Source of the DNA: an uncultured Spirochaetales bacterium
GTDB lineage: Bacteria > UBP6 > UBA1177
Reading direction: 5' to 3'
Assembly (NCBI GenBank): GCA_902774115.1
Contig: CACYHH010000004.1
Location: forward strand, 124,001 to 188,000
Length of the DNA stretch: 64,000 nucleotides
Shown here: positions 22,068 through 37,339 of the stretch, one piece after another
How the letters are laid out: every line of letters begins with the position of its first letter
How positions within the stretch are numbered: the first letter of the stretch is position 1
The notes under the pieces: model-generated
What the model saw: the letters and a program-made list of their open reading frames with translations, nothing else
What the model was told of the DNA's origin: nothing
The model's database searches: none
Position numbers and translations under genes: made by a program

Positions 22068-23198
22068 CTACTTAAGTGCGTTTTTAAGGATTTCTTCAGC
22101 AACTTCGAGCGTTTTTGCCGTTCCGCCAAGGTCGTATGTTACAACTTTGCGCTCTTTGACTGTAAGCTCGACACCTTTCTGGATCCTTGCCGCCATTTCG
22201 TGCTCGCCCAGGTATGTGCAGAGCATTTTTCCTGCAAGGATCGTAGCCATCGGGTTGACTTTATACATGCCGGTATATTTCGGTGCACTGCCGTGAACAG
22301 GCTCGAAAACAGCGTAGTTCGAACCGATGTTGCCGCTGTGAGCAAAGCCGAGGCCGCCTACAAGCTGGCTGCAGAGGTCGCTGATGATGTCGCCGAAAAG
22401 GTTTTCAGCAACAAGAACTTCATATTTTTCGGGGCATTTTACAAGCCACATTCCGATTGCGTCAACGTTGTCGAACCATGCGGTGATCTCAGGATATTCA
22501 GCAGCGATCTTCTCGAAAACTTCGACCATAAGTCCGCCGGTCTTTCTGAGAACGTTCGGTTTTTCAACAAGTGTGACTTTCTTCTTTCCGAACTTTCTTG
22601 CGTGCTCGAATGCTGCGCGGATGATCCTCTCAGCGCCCTTTCTCGTGATGATCCTTGTCGAGATCGCAAGATCTTCTCCCGGAGTATCCATGAAGAATTT
22701 CATCTTCGGCGAATCCTTTGCAAGAGCAGCTTTGAGCTCGTCGCTTACAGGACCGTATTCAACACCGGCATAGCTGCCTTCAGTGTTCTCTCTGAAAACC
22801 GTGATGTTGATGTCTTCCTTTCCGTTGAGGTTGAGCGGGTTGCCCGGAATAGCGATGTTCGGTCTTTCGTTGCAGTAAAGGTCGAATTCCTGGCGGAGTC
22901 TGACTATCGGAGAAAAATATGTGAGACCTTTGTCGCGAAGTTCGGGAATAAGCTCGTTCTTAGCCTCTTTCTGCGGTTTTGACGTGATTGCGCCGAAAAG
23001 AGCGGCATCAGTCGTCTTCATCATATCAGTCGTTCTTTTGGGAAGCGGATCGCCCTCTTTGCACCAGAATTCCCAGCCGATGTCGCCGTGAATGTATTCA
23101 GCATCAAGTTTAAGACCGTCGAAAACGATCTTTGCAGCTTCCATAACCTCTTTTCCAACGCCGTCACCCGGCAGCCAAGCGATACGATACTTTGCCAT
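22068..23198 (-). CDS. Isocitrate/isopropylmalate dehydrogenase family enzyme
   Basis: 376-residue beta-decarboxylating dehydrogenase. LPGDGVGKEV is at the N-terminus, the substrate motif is FRENTEGSYAGVEYG, and the metal and cofactor sites are seen in DNVDAIGMWLV, LFGDIISDL and EPVHGSAPKYTG. The RENTEG signature points to NAD-type isocitrate or homoisocitrate dehydrogenase rather than LeuB, which reads RELTGG here. The exact substrate cannot be fixed from the sequence. The ATG follows AAAGGAG. First gene of a two-gene unit with the PreT/GltD-like flavoprotein. Confidence 0.83.
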   Translation of the reverse strand: MAKYRIAWLPGDGVGKEVMEAAKIVFDGLKLDAEYIHGDIGWEFWCKEGDPLPKRTTDMMKTTDAALFGAITSKPQKEAKNELIPELRDKGLTYFSPIVRLRQEFDLYCNERPNIAIPGNPLNLNGKEDINITVFRENTEGSYAGVEYGPVSDELKAALAKDSPKMKFFMDTPGEDLAISTRIITRKGAERIIRAAFEHARKFGKKKVTLVEKPNVLRKTGGLMVEVFEKIAAEYPEITAWFDNVDAIGMWLVKCPEKYEVLVAENLFGDIISDLCSQLVGGLGFAHSGNIGSNYAVFEPVHGSAPKYTGMYKVNPMATILAGKMLCTYLGEHEMAARIQKGVELTVKERKVVTYDLGGTAKTLEVAEEILKNALK

Positions 23199-23384
23199 GA
23201 TTTTCTCCTTTTTTTAAAAATTATTAAAAAACTCAGACAGTGAATGAACTTCAAAAGCGAGTGATTTTACATTCTGATTTTTTTTGGTCAAACAAAATTG
23301 ATTTTATTCAGCATATTTTTCGAAATGAAGCTGCATAGGTCATCAGCGCTTGTTTTCTATAAACTCGTTGCTTTTTTCAGAGAA

Positions 23385-23430
23385 CCGTTCCGTTTTTCGT
23401 CTGATTTTGGACGAAAATCCAATATTTTGG
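23385..23430. repeat. Shared upstream hairpin motif, copy 1
   Basis: Lies in the 312-base gap before the ORF6N gene. It contains TTTTCGTC (23394-23401) and its exact complement GACGAAAA (23410-23417) around an 8-base loop. The surrounding CCGTTCCGTTTTTCGTC and TTTTGGACGAAAATC recur with few changes at 33388-33450 upstream of the DUF4143 gene. The rest of the gap holds the dehydrogenase leader and the promoter below; nothing else was seen. Confidence 0.7.
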
Positions 23431-23469
23431 TAACACACCCATTTAATACAAAGATACACTAAAAAATAT

Positions 23470-23498
23470 TTGATAAAACTCTCTTAACATATTATTAT
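23470..23498 (+). promoter_or_regulatory. sigma-70-type promoter for ORF6N gene
   Basis: TTGATA at 23470-23475 and TATTAT at 23493-23498, spacer 17 bp. Transcription should begin near 23505, only about six bases before the ATG at 23511, which favours the ATG at 23532 as the start or a leaderless message. Confidence 0.55.
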
Positions 23499-23510
23499 TG
23501 ATTTGCAGAA

Positions 23511-24524
23511 ATGTTTTATTATGGTAAAATTATGGAATGCGAAATTATAATTAATAGCGAAAACGATTTGAGATCAAAAATCTACACAATCCGCGGTATG
23601 CAGGTGATGCTGGATTTTGACTTGGCTGAAATTTATGGTTACACAACCAAACGTTTTAATGAGCAAGTCAGGAATAATATTGAAAAATTTGATGAAGATT
23701 TCAGATTCCAGCTGACTTGGGAGGAGTTAGAAATAATATCATCATTGCGTTCAAGGTCGAAAATTTCGACCTTGAACACAGGGCGCGGCAGCAATGTTAA
23801 ATACCTTCCTTACGCCTTTACCGAGCAGGGAATCTATATGCTGATGACTGTTCTTCGCGGCGATCTGGCAATAAGACAGAGCAAAATTCTGATCCGGCTT
23901 TTCAAAACGATGAAGGATTTCATCATCGAACGTGAAGATCTTATCGGTTATAACGATGTTGCAAAACTTGCGATCCAGACTTCGCAAAACACCAAAGACA
24001 TTGCCTTAATTAAAGAAAACATGGCAACAAAAACTGATGTTGTCAAAATCATTGAAGATTTCAGTAGCAGCGAAATAAAAAAGGATTTTCTCTTTTTGAA
24101 CGGAAAATCTGTTGAAGCCGATCTCGCTTACCAGCAGATCTATGCCGAGGCAAGAGAAACAATTTTTGTGATTGACAACTATATCAGCTTAAAAACGCTT
24201 GTTCTGCTCAAATCGGTGCGGGAAAATATAAAAATCACAATATTTTCTGACAATATCCGTCATGGCTTACACAAACAGGAACTTGGTGATTTTATTAAGG
24301 AATATCCTCATGTCGAGCTCTCTTTCAAAATAACTGACGGTATTTTTCACGACCGTTATGTAATTCTTGATTTCGGCACGAAAAACGAAAAAATCTATCA
24401 CTGCGGAGCATCATCTAAAGACGCAGGAAAAAAAGTCTGTACAATTTCAGCAATCACGGACAATGCCGTTTATAAGCCGCTGATTAAAAAATTATTGAAA
24501 AATCGGGAACTTGTTTTGGGTTAA
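23511..24524 (+). CDS. ORF6N domain protein with PLD-like C-terminal domain
   Basis: 337 residues (330 if the ATG at 23532 is used). The N-terminal ORF6N (KilA-N-related, DNA-binding) domain is at about residues 20-110, with KIYTIRGMQVML and YAFTEQGIYML. A helical linker follows. The C-terminal domain (about 195-335) has the HxRx4D motif HDRYVILD followed by HCGASSKDAGKK, a phospholipase-D-like half-site in which the usual Lys of HxKx4D is Arg. Such a pairing suggests a DNA-binding nuclease or regulator. ORF6N proteins are common in prophages and accessory regions. A second copy of the C-terminal domain is at 63448-64000. Its final codons are inside the 24-bp repeat at 24495. Confidence 0.8.
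   Translation: MFYYGKIMECEIIINSENDLRSKIYTIRGMQVMLDFDLAEIYGYTTKRFNEQVRNNIEKFDEDFRFQLTWEELEIISSLRSRSKISTLNTGRGSNVKYLPYAFTEQGIYMLMTVLRGDLAIRQSKILIRLFKTMKDFIIEREDLIGYNDVAKLAIQTSQNTKDIALIKENMATKTDVVKIIEDFSSSEIKKDFLFLNGKSVEADLAYQQIYAEARETIFVIDNYISLKTLVLLKSVRENIKITIFSDNIRHGLHKQELGDFIKEYPHVELSFKITDGIFHDRYVILDFGTKNEKIYHCGASSKDAGKKVCTISAITDNAVYKPLIKKLLKNRELVLG
24495..24518 (+). repeat. 24-bp direct repeat, left copy
   Basis: Perfect match to 34996-35019. Here it encodes the end of the ORF6N protein (LKNRELVL). Similarity extends a few bases on both sides with single mismatches (24490-24520 against 34991-35021). Confidence 0.85.
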
Positions 24525-24609
24525 GCCGCTGTCGCGTTGGCATTGAATTGATGTACGAAGTTAGATTATGACATAATAGATAATATTTTTCCGAAGGTAT
24601 ATGTGCTTC

Positions 24610-25341
24610 TTACAATACCAAATCCAATTCTGCTTTTATATCATCAGGCGCCAAGGAATTAACACAAGCAATAGCGCATGCTGAAAATGGAGCATCCGCT
24701 GAAACAGCCTCTTTAAGTTGTCGAATACAGGATTTTCTTGTTATGTCACTGGATTTATATTCAGCCAGAATTTTATCAACATTATCCCATATTTTTTTTC
24801 GCGAATCTCCTAATTTCTTCCAATTATATATTTTTTCTGAAACTTCCAACCTCGTTTTATTTTGTTCGTTTCCTGGATCAACAGGAAGTACCCGATTTCC
24901 CATAAACGTAATTAGTGCTACATCTTCTCGCACACATGGATCAATCAATAAAGGTATCTCTGTTTCGTTTCCATACTCTGTCAATAATGGGCTATCCTTT
25001 GCTAATGGGAAAAAACAGCCTTTTCCGCCTTCACCAGTTTTTCTATTCGCATATACACAAGACACTCGGTAATTATGAGGATCATTTTTTAACCAATGAT
25101 ATCCACAGTCAGCCAAAGGTTCATTGTAATTATATTGTTCAAATTGCCTCACCTTTTGTTTTGGTCTAAAATGATCAATATGTGCATCTTGACCAATCAA
25201 TTTCACTTCAGTGTACCAGCACTTGTTATGAAAATGCTTTCTAAAATCCTTTTTGAGTTTTTTATTTTTCCACAATTCACTAGAATTTCCCCAAGCATTT
25301 TGTTTAGTAAGAATTAGTTTTTCCAAGTCAATGTATCTCAT
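24610..25341 (-). CDS. HNH endonuclease, PtuB-like
   Basis: 243-residue protein with an HNH core: CWYTEVKL, then HIDHFRPKQKV at about residues 54-65 and a later YRVSC/N segment. The HxDHFRPK pattern is that of the TIGR02646/PtuB group of nucleases found with an ATPase in Septu and retron Ec78 defence loci. It overlaps the ATPase gene by ATGA, so the two are made together. Inference: it is the effector that degrades nucleic acid when the ATPase senses infection. The gene is visibly more AT-rich than the flanking core genes. Identity as a true PtuB is not proven. Confidence 0.68.
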   Translation of the reverse strand: MRYIDLEKLILTKQNAWGNSSELWKNKKLKKDFRKHFHNKCWYTEVKLIGQDAHIDHFRPKQKVRQFEQYNYNEPLADCGYHWLKNDPHNYRVSCVYANRKTGEGGKGCFFPLAKDSPLLTEYGNETEIPLLIDPCVREDVALITFMGNRVLPVDPGNEQNKTRLEVSEKIYNWKKLGDSRKKIWDNVDKILAEYKSSDITRKSCIRQLKEAVSADAPFSACAIACVNSLAPDDIKAELDLVL

Positions 25342-26894
25342 GCTTGATCCTCATAAAGAGTGGATATTATTTCTTTTATTTTTTTTCGACGTTGTTGGAT
25401 TTCTTTGAATGAAAGATATTTCTTTGCAAAGAATTTAGATTTTTTGAATATTTGCATAAAATCGTCATAAAGAAAATCTATTGAATTATAAGAAATAGGT
25501 AAAGCTCCTAGTTTTTCTGTTAATTCTCTGAGCTTATCTTTTTCGCTCTCAGAAGCTTCTCCGTTTATCAACTTTAAATATAATTTCTGCCGTTTAATAA
25601 AATCTTTTCTCGTTTGTTCATCATAAGATGTTTCAAGTCCATAATACTCACTTTGCAGCAATCCGTCTATTCCTAAACCTTCGGTATTTTCTGAAGGTTC
25701 AACAACTTTCGCCTCATCATTGTTAAGAGTGAAAATTTTAATGAAATCTTTGTTTACTCCATTAATGACAAGCGGATCGTGCGTTGCTATAATTGCTTGG
25801 GTATTAACAGCTCCTTTTAAGCAATTATCAATGATTTCTTTTATTTCATATTTCCATTTAGGATTCATGTGCGCATCCGGTTCATCCATTAAAACGAGAC
25901 AATCTTCGTTTTTGCACACACCAAGCATACCCAGCATCTTGATCAGCTGGCGCTGTCCTTCACTCATATTGCTTACTTTAACTGAGGTATCTCCGAAAGG
26001 TACGGTCACCTCATAGCACGCATCAAATAGTGAGTGTAACTTTTCGAAAAATCCAAAGAGAGCAATAGAATCAGCACCAATTTCTTCAAGGTTGCTGAGC
26101 GTAAAATATCCCTTGCCAGCATCCGTATATTTGAACCCACGGCGGAAATAATCAGTGAAGCGATGGTCTATAAAATCTGCAAGATAATACAATCGTGTAG
26201 GGTAATCATCATCAAAATGCTCATTACCAAAAAGTCTCTCGACTTTATCCAGATTAACACAGACATCAACATATTCAATCTTTGAAAAGTGACATTTTTC
26301 CCGTAAATATCCTTTCTCAAAAGACTCATGGCCTGCAAGAATAGATAAAAGGTAGATTGGCGTCATCGCTTCGTCGCAGTAGTTGTATTTTCTCTTTGGA
26401 AAATATGGATTTTGAGTGACTGTGTCGTCATTCATGAACTTCTGGAAAAAAAGAATCGTTGAGCGGCATTCCTTTATATACTGATTATTAATCTGGCGGA
26501 TCTTACTTACGAGTTTATTGTTAGCACCGGAGTAGAACGCTACAATCCTTTGTGGGAACACCCGCCTTTTAGACATGACGGTTCTGATCAGCTTATAGCT
26601 TCCCTCATAAACCTTTGAGCCTGCTTGAAGACGATATCTGTGCCCATCCTTTGTGATTTTGTGCGGTGTTTGCGCATACTCGTAGTTGATTTCATAGTTA
26701 TAATCAATCCTATTTTCGATTGCAGGAGAATTAAAAGACATTAATATTTCGAGAACAGCGTCAATCATAGTTGACTTTCCGGTGCCGTTTTCTCCAATCA
26801 ATATGGTCGAGCTTCCGCCATCTACTGTAGAAAATGAAATGCTAAAATCAACCAGACAAAGATGATTGTCAATCTTCAGGCTTTTGATCTGCAT
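25338..26894 (-). CDS. AAA ATPase, PtuA-like (Septu-type)
   Basis: 518-residue SMC/ABC-like ATPase of the OLD/PtuA style. Walker A GENGTGKST is at residues 34-42, the signature-like NMSEGQRQLIKMLG lies near 320, Walker B is CLVLMDEPDAHMNP and the H-loop is IIATHDPLVI. The middle region is helical and divergent. No TOPRIM domain is apparent, which separates it from OLD nucleases, and the HNH gene overlaps its stop. It starts five bases after hsdS, so it belongs to the type I restriction operon. The Septu assignment rests on ATPase-HNH pairing and length. Confidence 0.7.
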   Translation of the reverse strand: MQIKSLKIDNHLCLVDFSISFSTVDGGSSTILIGENGTGKSTMIDAVLEILMSFNSPAIENRIDYNYEINYEYAQTPHKITKDGHRYRLQAGSKVYEGSYKLIRTVMSKRRVFPQRIVAFYSGANNKLVSKIRQINNQYIKECRSTILFFQKFMNDDTVTQNPYFPKRKYNYCDEAMTPIYLLSILAGHESFEKGYLREKCHFSKIEYVDVCVNLDKVERLFGNEHFDDDYPTRLYYLADFIDHRFTDYFRRGFKYTDAGKGYFTLSNLEEIGADSIALFGFFEKLHSLFDACYEVTVPFGDTSVKVSNMSEGQRQLIKMLGMLGVCKNEDCLVLMDEPDAHMNPKWKYEIKEIIDNCLKGAVNTQAIIATHDPLVINGVNKDFIKIFTLNNDEAKVVEPSENTEGLGIDGLLQSEYYGLETSYDEQTRKDFIKRQKLYLKLINGEASESEKDKLRELTEKLGALPISYNSIDFLYDDFMQIFKKSKFFAKKYLSFKEIQQRRKKIKEIISTLYEDQA

Positions 26895-26899
26895 AGTAT

Positions 26900-28555
26900 T
26901 TACACCTGCTTTATAAGCGTATAACTCCCGTCATCATTCTTCTTGAGGATTTTCTTTTTCTCCAAAGATCGGAGCACCTCCATCAGCTCAAACTTCTTAG
27001 AGCTAATGGACATGATTTGTCTAATAGGAATAGCTGTAGTATCTGCTTTATAAAACAGTTTAATAACATCCCGCTCCATTGCCGTATCGAGTTTGCCATC
27101 TATCTCAACTGGAACAGAGACCTTTTTCTTTACTGGTTTATGCTCACTTTTATTGGCGTTGGCTTCGACAAGAATTGCTTTCAATAGTTCAATCGCACTC
27201 TCATCTTTGGGATCATTAGTTCCCAATTCTCCACGGAAGGCGCGGGAGAGGATGGATTTTTTCATTGAGTCAATATGATCAATCACTTGCAGTGCATTGT
27301 CTTTAGCATTCATATCATTATCAAGTATGGTTTTTATTATGGAAACAATCTCTTGCTGCTCTTCAATCAATGGCAAACGGAATGAAAAGGCTCCAATCTT
27401 CTTTGCATTAATATTTGATTGGTTCACACCATCACTTTTCACTTTGTTACAATATGCCCTGGCTTCAGGCGAATTAAGAATATAATTTAAATATTCTCCT
27501 ATTACCCTGTTATGGTCATAGTCCAGCTTAATCAAATAACCAGCAAATATAGCAGGGTATTCGCCACGATAGATAGCTGTCTTCCCTACCAGTTCAGGGC
27601 TGTTTGTCCTATTAAATAATACATCGCCGGGCTTTAATCTATATTTTTGGTTATCATCCACATCATTAGAATACACAAGACTTGTCCAGTCGATTTCTCC
27701 TTGTTGAAGATTCCCCATTCGGATTACAACGACTTCCCCGGAAGATTCGGATTTTTTTGCCGTTCCATATTTTAATGAACTGCAAATAGATTCGATAGTA
27801 ACAGCCTCATCATCTGAAAGAATTCCATTTGCCTTTCTCCACTCTGCTGTCAATTCCCCCGTAAATGCTTTGTGTAGAATCGCAGCTTTGCGATCCTCAA
27901 AGCCATCCACAACGGCCTGGGCTTTTTCCCTGGCTTCATCCAGTTTTGCAAACAGACTTTCGATACGGTCAACAATGCGTTGTTGTTCGGAATATGGTGC
28001 CAGGGGAATTGGACAATTCCCGATTATCTCAAGCGTGAGGTTTGGAATAGAAGTGACTTTTGTTTGCGATAAGAGCATTTTTTGAATAAGAGGGTTATCC
28101 AAAGACAACTTAATGTATTTATATAACGTTAATTCACTTACTAAGCGAACAAAACAAACCGCTTGATTTGTATTCAGTGGCAAATCACATTTTCTTACCA
28201 AACCGGTTTTTCCTAATGTTCCGGCAATAGAAACAAGCAGGTCATTTTCTTGTAATATTGAGCGTTTTAGAAATCCTTTATGCATTTCATTTGAGATATG
28301 CATGATGTTTTCATGGGATATTGTTCCATCATCACAGATATTCTCCACGCGAAGATAATTCACGCCTGTATCAGTATAAGCATTTCTACCACCTTGCGGG
28401 GTTGTTCCTTTTGAAATAATCGAAGATATGGATGATAAAAAAACCCATCGCCAATTATCCGGAATGGAAAAAGGTTGCTCAATATCTGGCACTAACATTG
28501 ATTCCAGTTTTTCTTCCGGCGTAAGCGCATTATCTTTTTTTGCTGTTTTTGCCAT
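26900..28555 (-). CDS. hsdS: Type I restriction specificity subunit HsdS
   Basis: Determines the DNA target of the type I enzyme. 551 residues with two target-recognition domains (about 30-195 and 235-405), each followed by a helical spacer (QQRIVDRIESLFAKLDEAREKA in part, and QQEIVSIIKTILDN). The first half begins with IPDNWRWVFLSSI, as is usual. Unusually, after the second conserved helix there is a further Lys-rich linker and a 65-residue domain (about 487-551, IPIRQIMSISSKKF ... KKILKKNDDGSYTLI) that looks like a winged-helix fold. Usual HsdS proteins end near residue 400-450. One base separates it from hsdM. Confidence 0.9.
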   Translation of the reverse strand: MAKTAKKDNALTPEEKLESMLVPDIEQPFSIPDNWRWVFLSSISSIISKGTTPQGGRNAYTDTGVNYLRVENICDDGTISHENIMHISNEMHKGFLKRSILQENDLLVSIAGTLGKTGLVRKCDLPLNTNQAVCFVRLVSELTLYKYIKLSLDNPLIQKMLLSQTKVTSIPNLTLEIIGNCPIPLAPYSEQQRIVDRIESLFAKLDEAREKAQAVVDGFEDRKAAILHKAFTGELTAEWRKANGILSDDEAVTIESICSSLKYGTAKKSESSGEVVVIRMGNLQQGEIDWTSLVYSNDVDDNQKYRLKPGDVLFNRTNSPELVGKTAIYRGEYPAIFAGYLIKLDYDHNRVIGEYLNYILNSPEARAYCNKVKSDGVNQSNINAKKIGAFSFRLPLIEEQQEIVSIIKTILDNDMNAKDNALQVIDHIDSMKKSILSRAFRGELGTNDPKDESAIELLKAILVEANANKSEHKPVKKKVSVPVEIDGKLDTAMERDVIKLFYKADTTAIPIRQIMSISSKKFELMEVLRSLEKKKILKKNDDGSYTLIKQV

Positions 28556-28556
28556 A

Positions 28557-30020
28557 TTAATCCTCTTCTTTCTGAAGGGCTTTTAGTTCTCTCACTACAC
28601 TTCTCAGCAAATCCGCCGCTTCCTCGAGCTGAGCAATGGCTTCTTCTCCGCTTTCGATAGGATCTGGCAATTCATCATAATCCTTGACGGAATCATCCCG
28701 GAGCAAGCCAAGATCTAGGCTGTCATCATGTTCTTTTTCAATTTCTTCTCGGGTGAATTTGCTCCACCTTTCCCCTGTGCGTTTGCTAGGATCGCGGTAA
28801 CCTTCCATGAACTCGTCGAAATCACTCTTGCGCAAAGGACGGGTTTTACCGAATCCATCCTGATTTGTACGCAGGTCATAATAAGCGATTTCTTTCGTAT
28901 TCCCTTTTTCCGTCGTGCCGCGGGTGAAAAACAAAACATTGGTTTTTACGCCCTGCGCATAGAAAATACCGGTTGGTAAACGCAGAATGGTATGCACATT
29001 GCAGAAATTCATCAGTTCCCGACGTACACTGGTGCCGTCACCGCCGACAAACAGCACATTATCCGGCAAAACTACAGCGCAACGAGCCTTTCCGTTCGCT
29101 TTAAGGCTGCGGTATATGACTTGCAGAAAATTCAACTGCTTGTTGGACGTGCGGAAAGAAATATCATCCCTGGTCGGACGTTCGCCGCCTTTCTTTGTAC
29201 CGAAAGGCGGATTGGTCAGAACCACATCGAACTCTTTGAACTTTTTGGCGTTGGAAGAAAGAGAATCCATACATTCGATGTCAGCAGAAACATTGTGCAG
29301 ATAGGCATTCATCAAAGCCAGCCGGTGCGCATCCGGCACCAGTTCCACGCCGCCGAAACTATGTTCAATCTGATTTACTTCTGTATCGGTCAATTCATAG
29401 AAAGACCTGCCTTTCGTTGCAATTCGATAGGCAGCAATCATAAAACCAAACGTACCGCAGGCAGGGTCGAAGCATTTTTCGCCAAGCTCTGGCGCAATCA
29501 GTTCAGCCATCACATCGATCAGCACGCGAGGCGTGAAATACTGACCTGCACCCGATTTCTTTTCATCGGCGTTTTTCTGCAACAATCCTTCGTATAAATC
29601 GCCCAAACCCTCATTTTTAGCATCATACCAGTCCAATTTGTTGATTTCTGTTATGATTTTTTTCAGATTGCGCGGTTCATCTATGCTGGATACGGCTTTC
29701 ACATAAATCCGGCTGATCTCGTTCAATGGTGCAGAACCAAGCTCTGTTAAAAGGGCATTATAATATTTTTTCAGTTCAAGCCCTTCCAGCTTCGTCAGAT
29801 TTTCCCATGAATACTTAACAAGTGCCTCGAATTGTTTTTTCTGTTCTTCATCTAATTTTTGAACAGCATCAATGAGCTTCTTTTCCGTTCCGGTTTCATA
29901 AATCATTTTAAGGAACAAAATATAAGTCAGCTCCGTTACATACTGATGATATGTGATTCCGTCATCTCTCAGAATGTTGCAGAGATTCCATAGTTTTTGA
30001 ACGATGTCTTGTGTACTCAT
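28557..30020 (-). CDS. hsdM: Type I restriction-modification methyltransferase HsdM
   Basis: DNA adenine methyltransferase of the type I complex, 487 residues. The N-terminal helical HsdM domain is at about 1-150, with GQYFTPRVLIDVMAEL leading to the SAM motif DPACGTFGF at about 185-193 and the catalytic NPPF at about 270-273. The C-terminal part carries ARCAVVLPDNVLF and VKTNVLFF. Its start overlaps the hsdR stop as TAATG. It both protects host DNA and forms the core of the restriction complex. Confidence 0.95.
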   Translation of the reverse strand: MSTQDIVQKLWNLCNILRDDGITYHQYVTELTYILFLKMIYETGTEKKLIDAVQKLDEEQKKQFEALVKYSWENLTKLEGLELKKYYNALLTELGSAPLNEISRIYVKAVSSIDEPRNLKKIITEINKLDWYDAKNEGLGDLYEGLLQKNADEKKSGAGQYFTPRVLIDVMAELIAPELGEKCFDPACGTFGFMIAAYRIATKGRSFYELTDTEVNQIEHSFGGVELVPDAHRLALMNAYLHNVSADIECMDSLSSNAKKFKEFDVVLTNPPFGTKKGGERPTRDDISFRTSNKQLNFLQVIYRSLKANGKARCAVVLPDNVLFVGGDGTSVRRELMNFCNVHTILRLPTGIFYAQGVKTNVLFFTRGTTEKGNTKEIAYYDLRTNQDGFGKTRPLRKSDFDEFMEGYRDPSKRTGERWSKFTREEIEKEHDDSLDLGLLRDDSVKDYDELPDPIESGEEAIAQLEEAADLLRSVVRELKALQKEED

Positions 30021-33000
30021 TATGCTGCTCCCTCATAAATATATGTATTCAGTTCCCGGATCAGATCTGTCAGTTTACCGTCGAATTTTTTATCGAAACG
30101 TGAGAAACCGCCATCCTTCATAAACGCAGGGGCATCAAATGTTTCACGATTCAATATACTTTCATGAAGCATATAAGTTTTGATTTTTTCCAGCATATCC
30201 AGTTGTATCTTGCTGAAGTTATGTGCTGTTATCAGTTTTGCGAAAGCTGCCTTGATACGGTCTTCATGGTTCACAATCGGTGTTTTCAATACTGCCTGAC
30301 GAACATAGGAAATAATATCTGCGATGATCTCTTCGTTTTTTACCTTACTCATTGCTTTATTGAGATTAATTTCAGAAAACTTCTCTTTGTCCAAAATCAG
30401 CTTCAATTCCCGCAGTTGCGCACGTGTCATATTGCTTGGTTTAGTGCAGGCAATACGGATAGCTTCGATTTTATCCTTGTTCTCGTTTATAAAAGTCGTA
30501 AATGATTCCAGATAATCCTCTGGTTTATCTGTTTTTCCATAACCACGTGTGGTTTCATACAAGGTATCTTCTTTATCTGAGTGATAAACAAAAGATTTCT
30601 GACCATGAAGACCGTCGACCCAAAGCAGAAAATCATAATCGGTGTGACAGCGTTGAATAAAAGCTTTCTCGGTATATCCTTTCAGTTCTTTGACATAAGA
30701 TTTGAGATTGCCGCCATCAAGATATTCTGAAACCTCATACTTCTGTTCTTCTGTAAGACAATGGTTTTTCTGCTGAAGCTTTGCCAAAATACTATCTTTT
30801 ACTGGCTGTTTGCTTGTTTCACTCGGACGAAAAAGATCCTGCAACAGCTCCTCCATCGTCTTCTGGACAGAAACAGACTTCATACCGTTTCCTCCGTCAA
30901 GGCCCTCAAATATTTTGACAGCATCAAAAATATTGAAATGCGTTTTCCTGATTTCCGGACAGAGTCGTGTGGCACGTCCCAACATTTGCTCGAACAAAAT
31001 ACGGCTGTTAACCTTCCTCATAAAAACCAGATTGCAGATAGCTGGCACATCAATACCGGTTGTCAGCAAATCAACGGTCACAGCAATATTGGGATATTGA
31101 TCGTTTTTATATTTATTGATGATCTGCAGGATTTTCTTTTTGTTGCCGCCGGCAGTTTTCCCGGTAATCTTCATAATGGCATCATTGGAAACCCCATAAG
31201 ACTCATATATATTGCGGAGCACATCAACGATTTGATCTGCGTGAGCATCGTTAACTGCAAAAATCAGTGTTTTTTCCTTACCTTCAGGGTTCAGATAATT
31301 GGATACTTCTTTAAGAACTTTGTAGGTATGATCCGGAAGAATGATCTTTTTGTTAAACTCAGAAACATCAAAATCCAGCTCATCCTTCATAACAGAGCTA
31401 TCCAAAATTTTGTTAGTATTTGGATCATAAATTCCAATAGGTTCTCCTACTTCGAATTTAGCCTTGTTTTCAATGAAATCTGTGTTGATTTTATATGGCG
31501 GATCGTAATCCACCAGCCAGCCGTCGATAACAGCTTCCCGATAACTATAGGTAAACACTGGCCTTCCAAAAATTTCTGTCGTATGAAGCGCAGGAGTTGC
31601 AGTTAAAGCAATTTTAACAGCATCGAAATACTCAATTACCTGCTTGTATTTGCTAATATAATCATCCTGACTGCAATAAAGCATTTCTTCATCCGTCATT
31701 TCCTGATCCAGAATATATCCGCGGTGCGCCTCGTCTACAATAATCAAATCGAATGAGCCGGGCGTTAAATCCGGTTTATCTGAAAGAATTGTCCTTTTTA
31801 ACAGACCTTGAACCGTTGATATGCTTACCTTTGTATCAGTATCTATGGTGTGATCATCGATATCGCTGATTGAATAAATTTTATCCAAGGAGAGCAGGTC
31901 TTTCAGCTTGACATCATGGAATGTGTCCATGGCCTGTTCGCCAAGAGAGACACGATCAACCAGAAAAAGAATTCTGCGGAAGCGTTTGGATTCAAGCATT
32001 TTATAGATAAGACCAAGAATAGTTCGCGTTTTTCCAGTTCCCGTTGCCATCGCAAGCAATGCGGTCGGTTTACCCTCTAAAATAGCTTCCGTAGCTTTGT
32101 TGATAGCTTCGATCTGATAATCTCTCAGGTTAAGTCCGGCAGGATCCGTCATAAAACTATTGTCGGCCGATTCAAGTTTTTCATTTGCCTTTTGAATATC
32201 CTGATCCAATCTGGCTTTCATGTCTTCAGGGCTGAACCAATTTCGGATGGGATAAGACAGATTAGCCTGATTTCTGACATCCAAGAACCATATCCCCGAC
32301 TTTGTTCGTAGTTGCTCTAAAAAAGCACGCCCATTGGACGCAAAGAGAAAAGGAACCCGATAATTTCCCCATTGTCCAATGGTATAAGAAAAATCCTCCT
32401 CTCTGATATGGGAAGCATAATCCTTTATTTGAACATCAATAGTGGATGCTACATCTTCTGACACTTTCTTTGCGTCCATCATCGCAACCAGTTTTTCTCC
32501 GATGAAGAAAGCATAGTCTGCGTAACCGTGATCCTGAAAAGCAGAATTGGTAGGCCATTCGCTGATCGCAATATTCCGTCCTTTGATAGGGCGTGTTCCT
32601 TTACTGTAGCGGAGATTCTTGGTATCTACTTCCCAACCGGCTTTTCTGAGCTGATCATCAATAAGGCGGCGTGTCTGGGCTTCTGTCCAGTTCATCATGG
32701 AAGAAACTTTTTCGGACTGTTTGATTCGTTCGATTTTCGATGTTCCGGAAGCTGCTGTTGAAACTGCTTCCAATTGCATTGAGAGTTCGGCGATCCGCTG
32801 TTCCTGCTGTTTGATTATCGCTTCAAAATCATCACGACATTTATCTTCCGGCATGACAAATTCGGATACGGCAAAATTCCAATCACCGTAAGTTTTCATA
32901 AACCAAATAGCGATGTTGTAAGCCATAGATAAAAGAGTTTGGGCATCTTCGACAGAATCTGAACCAGCATGCACAGCTGAATTTCTCTTTTTACGCAATA

Positions 33001-33256
33001 AATAAAGCGTATTGTCAACATCCATAGGCAAAAGACCGGCACGTTTCAGCAAACGAATACGATTTGCATGAGTATTATCTTGTTTTGGTTCAGAAATTCC
33101 TTCAAACAGCATAATTTCCTGAACCATACGCTCAGCAAATATCCCGATCTTATAAATGCAGGCATTCGGGTCTGAATATAAATAGCTTTCAGCATTTGCT
33201 CCTATTTGAGCTAACGCAGGCCAATATCTGTCAAGAAAAGTAAAATTTGATTTCAT
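30020..33256 (-). CDS. hsdR: Type I restriction endonuclease subunit HsdR
   Basis: ATP-dependent translocase and nuclease of 1078 residues, EcoEI-like. A DUF4145-like helical domain is at about 25-115. The nuclease site is seen around 247-264 (ADYAFF ... MMDAKK, the D...DxK of PD-(D/E)XK), the helicase Walker A ATGTGKTR at about 403-410 and the DEAH box at about 508-511, with later helicase motifs to about 800 (including LLTTGIDVP and GRATRL). A helical C-terminal domain would contact HsdM/S. The ATG follows GAGGTGG. First gene of a five-gene unit whose gaps are five bases or less. Confidence 0.95.
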   Translation of the reverse strand: MKSNFTFLDRYWPALAQIGANAESYLYSDPNACIYKIGIFAERMVQEIMLFEGISEPKQDNTHANRIRLLKRAGLLPMDVDNTLYLLRKKRNSAVHAGSDSVEDAQTLLSMAYNIAIWFMKTYGDWNFAVSEFVMPEDKCRDDFEAIIKQQEQRIAELSMQLEAVSTAASGTSKIERIKQSEKVSSMMNWTEAQTRRLIDDQLRKAGWEVDTKNLRYSKGTRPIKGRNIAISEWPTNSAFQDHGYADYAFFIGEKLVAMMDAKKVSEDVASTIDVQIKDYASHIREEDFSYTIGQWGNYRVPFLFASNGRAFLEQLRTKSGIWFLDVRNQANLSYPIRNWFSPEDMKARLDQDIQKANEKLESADNSFMTDPAGLNLRDYQIEAINKATEAILEGKPTALLAMATGTGKTRTILGLIYKMLESKRFRRILFLVDRVSLGEQAMDTFHDVKLKDLLSLDKIYSISDIDDHTIDTDTKVSISTVQGLLKRTILSDKPDLTPGSFDLIIVDEAHRGYILDQEMTDEEMLYCSQDDYISKYKQVIEYFDAVKIALTATPALHTTEIFGRPVFTYSYREAVIDGWLVDYDPPYKINTDFIENKAKFEVGEPIGIYDPNTNKILDSSVMKDELDFDVSEFNKKIILPDHTYKVLKEVSNYLNPEGKEKTLIFAVNDAHADQIVDVLRNIYESYGVSNDAIMKITGKTAGGNKKKILQIINKYKNDQYPNIAVTVDLLTTGIDVPAICNLVFMRKVNSRILFEQMLGRATRLCPEIRKTHFNIFDAVKIFEGLDGGNGMKSVSVQKTMEELLQDLFRPSETSKQPVKDSILAKLQQKNHCLTEEQKYEVSEYLDGGNLKSYVKELKGYTEKAFIQRCHTDYDFLLWVDGLHGQKSFVYHSDKEDTLYETTRGYGKTDKPEDYLESFTTFINENKDKIEAIRIACTKPSNMTRAQLRELKLILDKEKFSEINLNKAMSKVKNEEIIADIISYVRQAVLKTPIVNHEDRIKAAFAKLITAHNFSKIQLDMLEKIKTYMLHESILNRETFDAPAFMKDGGFSRFDKKFDGKLTDLIRELNTYIYEGAA

Positions 33257-33387
33257 CTTACCACCTCATCCGTTGGATAATAGCTGAAAGCAATATATAA
33301 ATCAATCAGTTACCCTTTTTTCTAAATTCCCACATATTTTGAGTGTTTTACAATATTTATTTTCATGATTTTCTCATTTTCATCCAA

Positions 33388-33450
33388 CCGCTCCGTTTCT
33401 CGTCCGCTTTTGCCGATTTTTGGACGAAAATCAACCGTTTTGGACGAAAA
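33388..33450. repeat. Shared upstream hairpin motif, copy 2
   Basis: In the 386-base gap between hsdR and the DUF4143 gene. CCGCTCCGTTTCTCGTCCG matches 23385-23403 with few changes, and TTTTGGACGAAAA occurs twice here (33418-33430 and 33438-33450) and once at 23405-23417. TCGTCC pairs with GGACGA, so the hairpin is kept although the loop is longer. Confidence 0.65.
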
Positions 33451-33520
33451 AACTGTTTTAACTGCCTCAAAAGTCAAGCAAATAAATTTGTTTTTCAGGA
33501 AATAATATCGTCAAATTTCA

Positions 33521-33629
33521 GGAATTTTGTGAGAAATCAACAGAAAATAGCCGGAATTTTGTGAAAAAACAAATCAAAAAATACTGGAATTTTGTGAAAA
33601 TTATGCTAAAAATGACAGGAATTTTGTGA
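33521..33629 (+). repeat. Four iteron-like 12-bp repeats upstream of DUF4143 gene
   Basis: GGAATTTTGTGA occurs exactly four times: 33521-33532, 33553-33564, 33586-33597 and 33618-33629. The start-to-start distances are 32, 33 and 32 bases, close to three helical turns, so all copies face the same side of the DNA. The last ends 13 bases before the ATG at 33643. The intervening sequence is unrelated between copies. This looks like an operator or protein-binding array. Confidence 0.8.
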
Positions 33630-33642
33630 TGAGAGGTCAAAA

Positions 33643-34992
33643 ATGCAAAAGCCGCTTTACAGAAAAATCGATGATTTTCTTATTGAATGGAAGAAAAATC
33701 CTGACAGACTTCCCCTTATTGTCAAAGGTGCCAGGCAAGTCGGAAAAACTTTCTCGATCAGGAATTTTGCCAAATCCTACAGGCATTTTGTCGAAATAAA
33801 CTTCATCGAAGAACCTAAGTATAAAAATATTTTTTCAAGCGGTTACTCACCCGATTCGGTCATAAAGGAAATCTCGCTGCTGAATCCTGATTTCAAGTTT
33901 GTTCCGAAAGAAACTTTGATTTTCTTTGACGAGATGCAGGCCTGCCCAGACTGCGCCTCATGCCTGAAATTCTTTAAAATCGACGGGCGGTACGATGTAA
34001 TCTGCTCCGGTTCCATGCTCGGAATAAACTACAACGAAGTGACTTCCGTAAGTGTCGGCTACAAGATAGATTTAGAGATGCATTCCCTTGATTTTGAGGA
34101 ATTTCTCATTGCGAAAGGTTACGCGGAAAGTCAGACCGGAACAATTCTGCAACACATGGAAAATACTGAGTCTTTCAGCCAGGCTGAATACGCGGTCTGG
34201 AATGAAAACTTTATGGAATACATGATTCTGGGCGGAATGCCGGCTGTTGTAAAGAAGTTTGTCGGTCAGAAAAATTATTCTGGAACGCTCGATCTTCAAA
34301 AGCAGATTCTCGCAGCCTACAAAGAGGACATAACAAAATATGCCTCCGGCCTTGATAAAGGCAAAATCGTCAATGTTTTCGACAATATTCCCGTTTTTCT
34401 GGCGAAGGAAAACAAAAAATACCAGATATCCAAAATCGCTGTCGGAGCGAGAAACCGCGAGTATGCCGGAACAGTCGAATGGCTCCGTGATGCCGGAATA
34501 ATCAACATCTGCCACTGTCTCGAAACACCGGAACTGCCGCTGAAAGGCAACTACAAAGTAAATGATTTCAAGATTTATTTCCGCGACACAGGGCTTTTGA
34601 TCGCCTCACTGGACGATGAAGCTCAGGCAGATCTGCGCCGTAACAGAAATTTCAACATATACAAAGGCGCGGTTTATGAAAATGTTGTCGGAGACATTCT
34701 GAAAAAACAGGATTACGATCTTTTTTACTATAAAAATGAAAAATCGACTCTCGAAATGGATTTTTTCGTCCGTGATGCAGACTCACTGATTCCGGTCGAA
34801 GTCAAAGCACAGGACAGCGCTACCGTTTCTCTGAACAATCTTGTCGAAAAAGAGAAGTATCACGACATAAAATACGGAATAAAATTCTGCGGCAGAAACA
34901 TCGGATTCAACGGAAAGATCTATACTTTTCCGCATTTCTGCGCTCCATGGCTCAAAAGATGGATTTTTGAGACTAAAATTTCGAAGAAATAA
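33643..34992 (+). CDS. AAA ATPase with DUF4143 C-terminal domain
   Basis: 449-residue protein of the widespread ATP-binding/DUF4143 family. Walker A KGARQVGKTFSIRNFA is at about residues 25-40, Walker B LIFFDEMQACPDC near 91, and an arginine-type segment CSGSMLGI follows. The C-terminal DUF4143 part ends in TLEMDFFVRDADSLIPVEVKAQ-like residues, where the spaced Glu/Asp and EVK match a PD-(D/E)XK nuclease core. The function of the family is poorly known; it is common in accessory regions and in multiple copies per genome. The ATG follows GAGAGG. Preceded by the four repeats and followed four bases later by the 24-bp repeat. Confidence 0.85.
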   Translation: MQKPLYRKIDDFLIEWKKNPDRLPLIVKGARQVGKTFSIRNFAKSYRHFVEINFIEEPKYKNIFSSGYSPDSVIKEISLLNPDFKFVPKETLIFFDEMQACPDCASCLKFFKIDGRYDVICSGSMLGINYNEVTSVSVGYKIDLEMHSLDFEEFLIAKGYAESQTGTILQHMENTESFSQAEYAVWNENFMEYMILGGMPAVVKKFVGQKNYSGTLDLQKQILAAYKEDITKYASGLDKGKIVNVFDNIPVFLAKENKKYQISKIAVGARNREYAGTVEWLRDAGIINICHCLETPELPLKGNYKVNDFKIYFRDTGLLIASLDDEAQADLRRNRNFNIYKGAVYENVVGDILKKQDYDLFYYKNEKSTLEMDFFVRDADSLIPVEVKAQDSATVSLNNLVEKEKYHDIKYGIKFCGRNIGFNGKIYTFPHFCAPWLKRWIFETKISKK

Positions 34993-34995
34993 TTG

Positions 34996-35019
34996 TTGAA
35001 AAATCGGGAACTTGTTTTG
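34996..35019 (+). repeat. 24-bp direct repeat, right copy
   Basis: Perfect match to 24495-24518. It lies four bases after the DUF4143 stop and reads, in the frame used by the ORF6N gene, LLKNRELVLS then TAG, so it is a remnant of the 3' end of a second ORF6N-type gene. Confidence 0.85.
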
Positions 35020-35026
35020 AGCTAGC

Positions 35027-35689
35027 TCATTTTTTCATTCTTACCTTCAGCTCGTTTCTGACTTTTTCCAGATCACCGCAGGAAAGCAGAGGCATAAGAT
35101 CATCTATTTCTTCTATGCTTTTATCCCACCATTTGAACTCAAGCAGCAGTTCAGTCAGCTCGTCGTCAAAGCGTTTTTTTACGACCCGGCACGGGTTGCC
35201 CACTGCAACAGTATAAGGCGGAATATCCGATGCCACTACCGAATTCGCCCCGATAATAGCTCCGTCACCGATATGAACACCCGGCATCACAGTTGCATTC
35301 TGGCCGATCCACACATCATTTCCGACGATAGTGTCGCCTTTGAGTGGTAGCTCTTCTGTTACCGGCGCAAGGGCGTTTCCCCATTTTCCGCCCATTATGT
35401 AAAACGGATAAGTAGTCACGCAGCCCATTCTGTGGTTGGCACCGTTCATCACAAACTCGACACCCTTTGCTATTGCGCAGAACTTGCCGATGATCAGTTT
35501 GTCGCCGATAAAACCGTAGTGATGCGTTACATGTTTTTCGAACTGGTCTGCACCGTTCACGTCATCGTAATAGGTGAAATCACCGACAATGATATTCGGA
35601 TTTTTCACAACATTCTTGATATAGCAGAGACTTGGAATCTTCGGATTCGGGAAAGCCTCATCAGGACTAGGTGTTTGTCTGTTTGCCAT
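35027..35689 (-). CDS. Vat/CatB-family xenobiotic O-acetyltransferase
   Basis: 220-residue left-handed beta-helix acetyltransferase. The start is the ATG at 35689 (MANRQTPSPDEAFPNP), with GGAG eight bases upstream. The catalytic His is seen as His86 in MNGANHRMG, the same context as in VatD. Hexapeptide repeats run through GNDVWIGQNATVMPGVHIG and end with PYTVAVGNPCRVVKKRF, and a helical C-terminus closes the protein. Known members inactivate streptogramin A or chloramphenicol, but many homologues act on other substrates, so resistance is not shown. It is directly beside the right end of the putative island and downstream of the Cys-rich gene. Confidence 0.82.
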   Translation of the reverse strand: MANRQTPSPDEAFPNPKIPSLCYIKNVVKNPNIIVGDFTYYDDVNGADQFEKHVTHHYGFIGDKLIIGKFCAIAKGVEFVMNGANHRMGCVTTYPFYIMGGKWGNALAPVTEELPLKGDTIVGNDVWIGQNATVMPGVHIGDGAIIGANSVVASDIPPYTVAVGNPCRVVKKRFDDELTELLLEFKWWDKSIEEIDDLMPLLSCGDLEKVRNELKVRMKK

Positions 35690-35726
35690 TTGTAACTCCG
35701 TTATTAAAACTGGAACTTTATCTCTT

Positions 35727-36092
35727 TCAATCCTTTCTGATCTGGAACCGGCAATGTTCCGCTCCACGCAATATAGTTTCCAAAATCTCCACCTCAAATT
35801 TGCTGTCCGGTTCCATACAGCTGAGAATAAACAGGATGCTTTGTCTGCTACATTCGCATTGCTCCGGGTCAGTAACCTTGCCGGACAAAACTTTCGGACA
35901 AGTGCATTTTTCATAGCCAAGCTCGTATTTATGGCCGGGTTCGATCACCTTCCCGAAGTATCCGTTTCCGTTCATAGCCCCGCCGTAAACTCTGTCCAGA
36001 TCGCCGTTGCAGGCCCGATAGAGTTCCATTTGTGCAGGGAGAACACGGTCTTTCACACAGGTTACGGCCTGTTCATAATACTTGTCTTTCAT
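35727..36092 (-). CDS. Small conserved Cys-rich protein, function unknown
   Basis: 121-residue soluble protein, no family named with confidence. The N-terminal half is helical (MKDKYYEQAVTCVKDRVLPAQ). A central CTCPKV and CECSRQS give four closely placed Cys able to bind metal, and the C-terminus ends EVEILETILRGAEHCRF. The C-terminal pattern recalls the L-2-amino-thiazoline-4-carboxylate hydrolase-like domain, but the match is only by shape. The ATG follows GGAG. It precedes the Vat-like gene by 37 bases on the same strand and they are likely co-transcribed. Confidence 0.72.
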   Translation of the reverse strand: MKDKYYEQAVTCVKDRVLPAQMELYRACNGDLDRVYGGAMNGNGYFGKVIEPGHKYELGYEKCTCPKVLSGKVTDPEQCECSRQSILFILSCMEPDSKFEVEILETILRGAEHCRFQIRKD

Positions 36093-36173
36093 AAATTCTC
36101 CTTATCTACAAAGTTGTATTTTGCATTCAGCACCAATTCTTTATCTTTTAAATCCGGTGATTTCAGAGAAAAG

Positions 36174-37283
36174 CTACTCGTCTTCGTCGCTGCCGGAGAA
36201 CTCTTCGACGCTCTGGCCGAGAAGAAGCGCGTTCTGATAGTGGATGAGCGGGTCGATGATCATGTCGAGCGAGCCTTCCATGATTTCATTTATTCTGTAA
36301 AGAGTGAGTTTGATCCTGTGGTCGGTGACACGCCCCTGCGGAAAGTTGTAAGTTCTGATTTTTTCAGATCTGTCGCCGCTTCCTACAAGGCTTCTGCGCT
36401 GCGAACTGACCTCTTGATCGCGTTTTTCACGCTCGAGTTTGAGAAGTTTCGCTTCCAAAACTTTCATCGCTCTCGCACGGTTCTGGATCTGGCTGCGCTC
36501 ATCCTGCATAGCAACGACGATTCCGGTCGGGATATGGGTGATTCTGACCGCGCTGTCTGTTTTATTGACGTGCTGACCGCCTGCACCGCTTGAACGGTAG
36601 ACATCGATTTTGAGGTCTTTTTCATCAATCTGGACTTCGTCGATTTCGTCAGCCTGAGGAAGAACCGCGACCGTAATTGCCGAAGTGTGGACTCTGCCCT
36701 GAGATTCGGTGACGGGAACACGCTGAACTCGGTGAACGCCGCCTTCGTATTTGAGCCTGCCGTAGACATCGTCGCCCGAAATTTCGGAAATGACTTCCTT
36801 GATCCCTGCACCTTCCGCCGTGCTGATCGACATGATTTCGACTTTCCACTTGTTGAGTTCGGCGTAACGGCAGTACATGCGGTAGATTTCTTCTGCAAAA
36901 AGAGCCGCCTCGTCGCCGCCTGTTCCGGCACGGATTTCAAGAATCGCGCTTTTTTCGTCAAGCGGATCTCTCGGAAGAAGGAGAACGTTGAGTTCGTCGG
37001 TGATCGCGTTGTATTTTTCCTCGAGTTCAGGAAGCTCCGCCTTGATCATCTCGATAAGTTCCGGGTCTTTCTCGATAGAAAGCATCTCCTTCTGGTCTGC
37101 GATTTCGCGCTCGAGTTTGTCCCATTCGAGATAGTTGTCGACGATTTTTTTCAGGCGTTTGTATTCACGCATGAGCTTCGTGTATTTTTTCACGTCGCCG
37201 ACAGTTTCCGGCTTTGCGATTTCTTTCTCGATGTTCAGAAAACTTTTGTGAATCTCGGCAAGTTTGTCTTTGATTTCAAGCAT
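36174..37283 (-). CDS. prfA: Peptide chain release factor 1
   Basis: Releases finished peptides at UAA and UAG. 369 residues at normal length, with the recognition tripeptide PVT at about 190-192 (RVPVTE, RF1 type) and the catalytic GGQ at about 235-237 in [16 protein letters not shown]. The start is the ATG at 37283 (MLEIKDKL) with AGAGG upstream; a longer frame from 37319 crosses the terminator of rpmE and is rejected. No PrmC methyltransferase gene follows. It lies downstream of rpmE but is separated from it by a terminator. Confidence 0.96.
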
Positions 37284-37297
37284 CGGTTCCTCTTGAT

Positions 37298-37339
37298 AAA
37301 AAAATCCCGCCAATCTCACAAAAAAGGAAATTGACGGGC
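37298..37339 (-). terminator. Rho-independent terminator of rpmE
   Basis: On the minus strand, CCCGTCAAT pairs with ATTGGCGGG (one G-T) and is followed by ATTTTTTT. It lies between rpmE and prfA. Confidence 0.8.

Follow-up and report, generated by a model that had tools for sequence, protein, structure and literature searches.

The DUF4143 ATPase gene in the 64-kb stretch of DNA analyzed here (the window) is directly preceded by four exact copies of the word GGAATTTTGTGA, at spacings of 32, 33, and 32 bp. Arrays of the same design, each with a word specific to its gene, precede related genes in several phyla, which suggests that the encoded protein controls its own gene. On the sequence data presented below, the array is probably the operator through which the protein, an ATPase with a predicted winged helix-turn-helix and a nuclease domain, acts on its own promoter.

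The Defense Locus in the Window

The window derives from an uncultured rumen bacterium with a genome of 2.5 Mb. Its initial annotation named a DUF4143 ATPase and an ORF6N gene, and Pfam analysis bears out both calls (PF13635 and AAA_14 in the product of the former; PF10543 in the product of 23511-24524). The features of the region are as follows:

22068-23198: dehydrogenase gene (isocitrate/isopropylmalate-dehydrogenase-like)
23372-23420, + strand: 5' element upstream of ORF6N, with a hairpin at 23403-23419
23511-24524, + strand: ORF6N-domain gene (PADLOC PDC-S05), without a repeat array (Pfam PF10543, PADLOC, array scan)
24610-33256, - strand: block of Septu-like and type I restriction-modification (RM) genes, inside segment 23309-33483
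24610-25341 and 25338-26894, - strand: Septu-like PtuB and PtuA (Pfam, PADLOC)
26900-33256, - strand: type I RM genes hsdS, hsdM, and hsdR (Pfam, PADLOC)
33374-33450, + strand: 5' element with hairpin GATTTTTGGACGAAAATC (33415-33432), absent before DUF4143 in L036, L089, G004, and G012
33521-33532, + strand: first array copy, exact GGAATTTTGTGA
33553-33564, + strand: second array copy, spaced 32 bp from the first
33586-33597, + strand: third array copy, spaced 33 bp from the second
33618-33629, + strand: fourth array copy, spaced 32 bp from the third; its end is 13 bp away from the start codon
33643-34992, + strand: AAA_14 and DUF4143 ATPase gene (PADLOC PDC-S01; Pfam, PADLOC, alignment, AlphaFold2)
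34987-35019, + strand: ORF6N 3'-end remnant behind DUF4143, 31/33 identical to 24486-24518
35027-35920: hexapeptide acetyltransferase gene
36174-37319: prfA

The Septu-like pair, the type I RM system, PDC-S05, and PDC-S01 apparently form one defense island. The PtuA/PtuB pair (24610-26894) lies directly downstream of the hsdR-hsdM-hsdS operon on the same strand.

A Private Repeat Array Precedes the DUF4143 Gene and Many of Its Paralogs

The four phased repeats (33521-33629) fall within the interval that was initially assigned to the DUF4143 locus, and went unmentioned there. An exact-word search of the source genome returned five copies of GGAATTTTGTGA. Four make up this array, and nowhere else in the genome do two copies lie close together. 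A blind array scan of the window detected no array besides the one at DUF4143.

The source genome contains 16 DUF4143 matches. Applying a strict definition of an array (at least three copies of an 11-mer, with no more than two mismatches per copy and a spacing of 31-34 bp), we identified one at 10 of these 16 paralogs. At L018 the array lies outside the scanned stretch; the spacing is 23 bp at L009 (four copies) and 20-21 bp at L021 (three copies). The paralogs have words of their own (for example GGAAAAAGTGG, TGCTTTTTCGTG, GGCGCAAACGTG, GATTTGGTGC, and GCGCTAAGCTGT), and the spacing is usually exactly 33 bp. At one paralog (L008, G000:C6:168556-172038), copies of the word are found before the start and also after the stop codon.

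Array searches covered the window, 716 kb of flanking sequence, and, for exact words, the genome. The blind scan of the 716 kb of flanks yielded 16 arrays, most of which adjoin another PDC-S01 gene or a remnant of one. In L066 (848-960), four copies of CGAAAATGTG stand before a PDC-S01-like gene of which just the opening codons (ATGGACTTGCTTAAAAGG) are present; this array is apparently an orphan whose gene was lost. The arrays differ from CRISPR arrays, which have long near-identical repeats and unique spacers, in that their word of 12-20 bp is present in three to five copies and always at the promoter.

The Array Is Widespread and Diverges With the Protein

A strict array was present at 102 of 158 PDC-S01/DUF4143 loci, many of which are near relatives of one another, and at none of 790 shuffled upstream regions or 155 within-gene stretches. 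None of 11 ORF6N upstream regions carried an array in a looser scan. Together, these controls rule out that the array is a general trait of AT-rich upstream sequences. The spacings within strict arrays are narrowly distributed (32 bp, 143 times; 33 bp, 96; 34 bp, 6; 31 bp, 4). Arrays were found in at least six phyla (Bacteroidota, Bacillota, Actinomycetota, Chlamydiota, Pseudomonadota, and that of the window), in hosts including Prevotella and other Bacteroidales, Selenomonadales, Lachnospiraceae, Collinsella, Criblamydia, Vibrio coralliilyticus, and Glaesserella. Three of the array-bearing contigs were deposited as phage.

Because many loci are near relatives, a tree is a fairer measure than the locus count. 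In the protein tree, all 94 array-bearing proteins fall within one clade of 111, and the array label requires 11 changes, vs. 40.9 in shuffles. Most of the exceptions in this clade retain two copies at the right distance. The canonical clade comprises 30 rows without a 31-34 bp array, including the source-genome paralogs L006 and L007, so that this mode of action does not extend to all DUF4143 ATPases. A member of the same clade that was added later (L207) has three copies at 32 bp; the canonical group is therefore not wholly without arrays. Among the scanned proteins, those matching PADLOC sub-models 04786, 04788, and 04792 have arrays, and those matching 04790 do not. Within 04790, the subgroup of L009 carries three to seven copies, spaced 22-23 bp, at each of 11 loci, with words such as GAATTTGTAT, CGCCAAATTA, and AATCAAAATC (L009, L196-L206).

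Word similarity tracks protein identity, with a value of 0.87 at identities of at least 80% and 0.35 below 30% (Mantel rho 0.26, 0/2000). Rapid switching of the word between near relatives was considered and set aside, as the upstream regions in question have a common core that had been picked up in shifted frames of a longer word.

The Array Is in Register With the Promoter in Bacteroidota

Of 50 Bacteroidota loci, 36 have the -7 box of the phylum, TAnnTTTG, close to the array, vs. 10% in shuffles. Measured from the last GTGA, the position of the box is -19 in 27 of the 50 loci and -20 or -21 in seven; in six it is -51, which is one period further up. Given this register of the -7 box and the known promoter spacing, the last copy is expected to lie on the transcription start and the preceding copy on the -33 region. 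The last copy extends into a TATAAT-like box in Selenomonadales (e.g., L056). At L149 and L190 the word is reversed (ACACTTTT) and the 33-bp period is the same, which argues for recognition of double-stranded DNA.

The Protein Combines an ATPase With a PD-(D/E)XK Nuclease

The window protein matches the PADLOC model PDLC04786 (PDC-S01) over residues 5-439 of 449 (E 1.7e-149). It has traits of PDC-S01: a full-length profile match, a P-loop ATPase fused to PD-(D/E)XK, and a setting in a defense locus, with type I RM, PtuAB, and PDC-S05 as neighbors. In an alignment of 34 sequences, the Walker A (G34, K35, T36) and Walker B (D96, E97) residues are invariant, as are the PD-(D/E)XK residues E346, D373, E386, and K388. 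Pfam identifies AAA_14 and DUF4143 only, and a Rep initiator domain was not found.

The AlphaFold2 model of the protein is of good quality overall, with a pLDDT of 88.5 and a pTM of 0.89. Helices and strands of the model suggest a winged helix at approximately residues 239-313; a stretch modeled with pLDDT below 50 (residues 256-272) falls in part of this region. A sequence search of the PDB gave no solved relative. The best solved neighbors in Foldseek are the archaeal ATPases 2qen and 2fna, at low TM (0.44/0.54), followed by ORC/Cdc6, CED-4, and STAND proteins, also at low TM. DNA-bound Orc1/Cdc6 is among the hits (2qby and 2v1u, E about 1e-5, TM about 0.3). Windowed identity along the protein did not single out a localized specificity region.

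Probable Autoregulation and Alternative Readings of the Array

Autoregulation is the best supported explanation, because the sites are private to the gene, are in helical phase with a period specific to the subgroup, are transferred together with the gene, diverge with the protein, and are in register with the promoter. We propose that the DUF4143 gene is a self-contained, single-gene defense candidate, encoding an Orc1/Cdc6/STAND-like ATPase with a putative winged helix and a PD-(D/E)XK nuclease. The gene travels with a private cis array over its own promoter, in which three to five copies of a 12-20 bp word follow one another in direct orientation. The period is characteristic of the subfamily: 32-33 bp, or about three helical turns, and 23 bp in another subgroup. 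Binding of the encoded protein to the array would be cooperative, on one face of the helix, and would repress transcription of its own gene; the potentially toxic ATPase-nuclease would be kept low until infection or DNA stress removes it. We infer the protein as the binder, the sign of the regulation, and the trigger. Operators that overlie a promoter usually serve repression, and activation may be an alternative.

A gene-private, promoter-registered array with a period specific to the subfamily offers a handle on such genes. It points to what the protein probably binds, and each paralog comes with its own probe DNA and a promoter suited to a simple reporter assay. The array is, in addition, a mark at the DNA level for finding PDC-S01-type genes and their remnants.

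A possible, if rather unlikely, extension is that the array is more than an operator and serves as a loading or sensing platform on which the Orc/STAND-like ATPase assembles. Loss of the complex, through a phage DNA-binding protein or through replication or degradation of the DNA, would then release or activate the nuclease. The fixed helical phase and the multiple copies fit an assembled oligomer, the different periods of the subgroups (23 vs. 32-33 bp) suggest protein geometry, the nuclease residues are intact, and the predicted fold is near those of Orc1/Cdc6 on DNA and of STAND filaments; autoregulation, however, fully explains the position and register of the array over the promoter. Tentatively, then, the promoter might act as both operator and infection sensor, with the protein assembled on the array, the word and the protein co-diverging, and the period set by the geometry of the protein.

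Binding of the array by the ATPase is itself deduced, and a host regulator could occupy the sites instead. We consider this improbable: the same architecture recurs with gene-specific words in several phyla, the word is private within the genome and diverges with the protein, and no regulator gene moves along.

At unrelated loci, three relatives of the DUF4143 gene (L037-L039) have no DNA in common with the window except the stretch that runs from the array through the end of the gene. Its own repeat array is what moves with DUF4143 between unrelated loci. This shared unit, and the 16 DUF4143 matches in the source genome, would also fit a minimal mobile or homing element, in which the repeats are the ends of, or the target for, the ATPase-nuclease's own movement. 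We give this reading little credence, as the array is nearly always one-sided and always at the promoter, and neither a target-site duplication nor an excised form was found. That the repeats, which lie near the start codon, act in the mRNA leader as an attenuator or in translational control is very unlikely, considering the reversed word at an unchanged period in L149 and L190 and the position of the upstream copies in Bacteroidota, which precede the -7 box and so lie outside the transcript.

Shared Flanks Reflect Rearrangement at the Dehydrogenase-prfA Site

The initial annotation had pointed to an upstream hairpin motif and a 3' sequence common to the ORF6N and DUF4143 loci, and both similarities are real. 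The 3' share (24486-24518 vs. 34987-35019) is identical at 31/33 positions (E = 2e-9 for the two regions). As had been claimed, it is coding in ORF6N, where it encodes the C-terminus LLKNRELVL, and non-coding at DUF4143, where it lies 3' of the stop codon. The 5' share (23374-23409 vs. 33377-33412) is identical at 29/36 positions (E = 4e-4), with a common TTTTGGACGAAAA after it. The hairpin is small, GATTTT(T)GGACGAAAATC, and lies at 23403-23419 and 33415-33432.

Collecting the copies of these flanks across the source genome gave the 3' core at two places and the 5' element at three. The 21-nt core of the 3' share has exact matches only at the two places in the whole genome, and three weaker matches lie within ORF6N-type or other coding sequence. 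The third copy of the 5' piece (G000:C2:240147, 83% over 54 bp, E = 7e-10) is on another contig, where its neighbors are a second gene of restriction type and a hexapeptide acetyltransferase paralog. The surrounding region (L035, G000:C2:238647-241700) comprises the 5' element, the restriction-type gene, which ends in NANATAA, a RelB/DinJ-like antitoxin, and the acetyltransferase paralog, which is near-identical to the gene at 35027-35920. The NANATAA end recurs in the window, where it forms a remnant behind ORF6N.

Comparison of same-genus genomes clarifies the history of the site between the dehydrogenase gene and prfA. The interval is empty or nearly so in five of them (G001, G005, G006, G009, and G010), contains other genes in G002 and G008, and holds ORF6N, Septu/RM, and DUF4143 in the window. 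In G011, the 5' element and ORF6N are joined to the acetyltransferase gene, and the joint is the 33-mer (L153: window 24518 to 34991). Since the 3' end of ORF6N in G011 joins the acetyltransferase gene through this very 33-mer, the 33 bp behind DUF4143 are a true remnant, the leftover 3' stump of an ORF6N gene. In G004 and G012, the sequence compared stops within the 33-mer that follows the DUF4143 gene and covers its first bases; L036 and L089 have the same junction with the whole 33-mer. In these four the 5' element is missing, as is the segment 23309-33483 with the Septu/RM block. Other arrangements are found in UBA1196 (L105), where ORF6N is directly followed by the 5' element and DUF4143, and in L040, with the order DUF4143, acetyltransferase, 5' element, ORF6N.

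The states of the site in the genus and the remnant therefore indicate an insertion hotspot, and stepwise gains, deletions, and remnants at a chromosomal hotspot are the ordinary explanation for window positions 23200-36170. The shared flanks are rearrangement debris, consisting of remnants left by copies of ORF6N and of the 5' element, at the variable dehydrogenase-prfA site. The proposal that DUF4143 sits in the shell of an ORF6N locus stands in so far as the gene occupies a site that holds ORF6N material in relatives and is followed by an ORF6N remnant; the common cassette frame does not. Exchange of cassettes between common flanks, to which the two real similarities and the varied cargo listed at this site across the genus would point, is exceedingly improbable, as the two shares travel separately (L036, L089, G004, and G012 have the 3' remnant without the 5' element) and occur only two and three times in the genome. 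A search for the integron integrase TIGR02249 gave no match over the cut-off, and weak matches were as in all 14 control genomes. A cassette system was rejected in view of the flank counts, the empty sites, and the lack of an integron integrase over the cut-off.

Comparison With Known Systems

PDC-S01, an ATPase fused to PD-(D/E)XK, is described as the fourth most common predicted defense system across prokaryotes, and validation is pending for most PDCs (PMC12988326). It is also reported as the most frequent single defense locus in cattle rumen genomes (PMC13356809). PDC-S01 is an abundant, predicted, and unvalidated defense candidate. The window gene resembles it in matching PDLC04786, in lying in a defense island, and in combining ATPase and PD-(D/E)XK as given in PMC12988326. 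A repeat array is not mentioned in the available parts of PMC12988326 and PMC13356809, and the array marks only some of the PADLOC sub-models. In the open-access papers searched, we found no published description of the array.

Like integron gene cassettes, the window site accommodates varied genes at one position, but it lacks both an integrase over the cut-off and a recurrent recombination site beside many genes (the core of the 33-mer is present at two places and the 5' element at three). Partition operators of the parC/ParR type consist of phased direct repeats over a promoter and mediate autoregulation. The array shares the phased direct repeats over the promoter; ParR, however, is a small ribbon-helix-helix protein, whereas here there is one large ATPase gene.

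In iteron-controlled plasmids, direct repeats spaced by whole helical turns lie beside the gene for the replication initiator and overlap its promoter. The likeness extends to the phased direct repeats next to the gene, an initiator-like protein, and the overlap with the promoter. The window gene, in contrast, has no Rep domain and is chromosomal, the 16 DUF4143 matches of the genome have different words, and the period is 23 or 32-33 bp. Archaeal Orc1/Cdc6 genes, which lie beside origin repeats, encode a possibly related ATPase-winged-helix fold (2qby, 2v1u) and are likewise found next to putative binding sites. Unlike these, and with only a low TM to them, the window type adds a nuclease domain, is horizontally mobile, and shows no sign of origin function.
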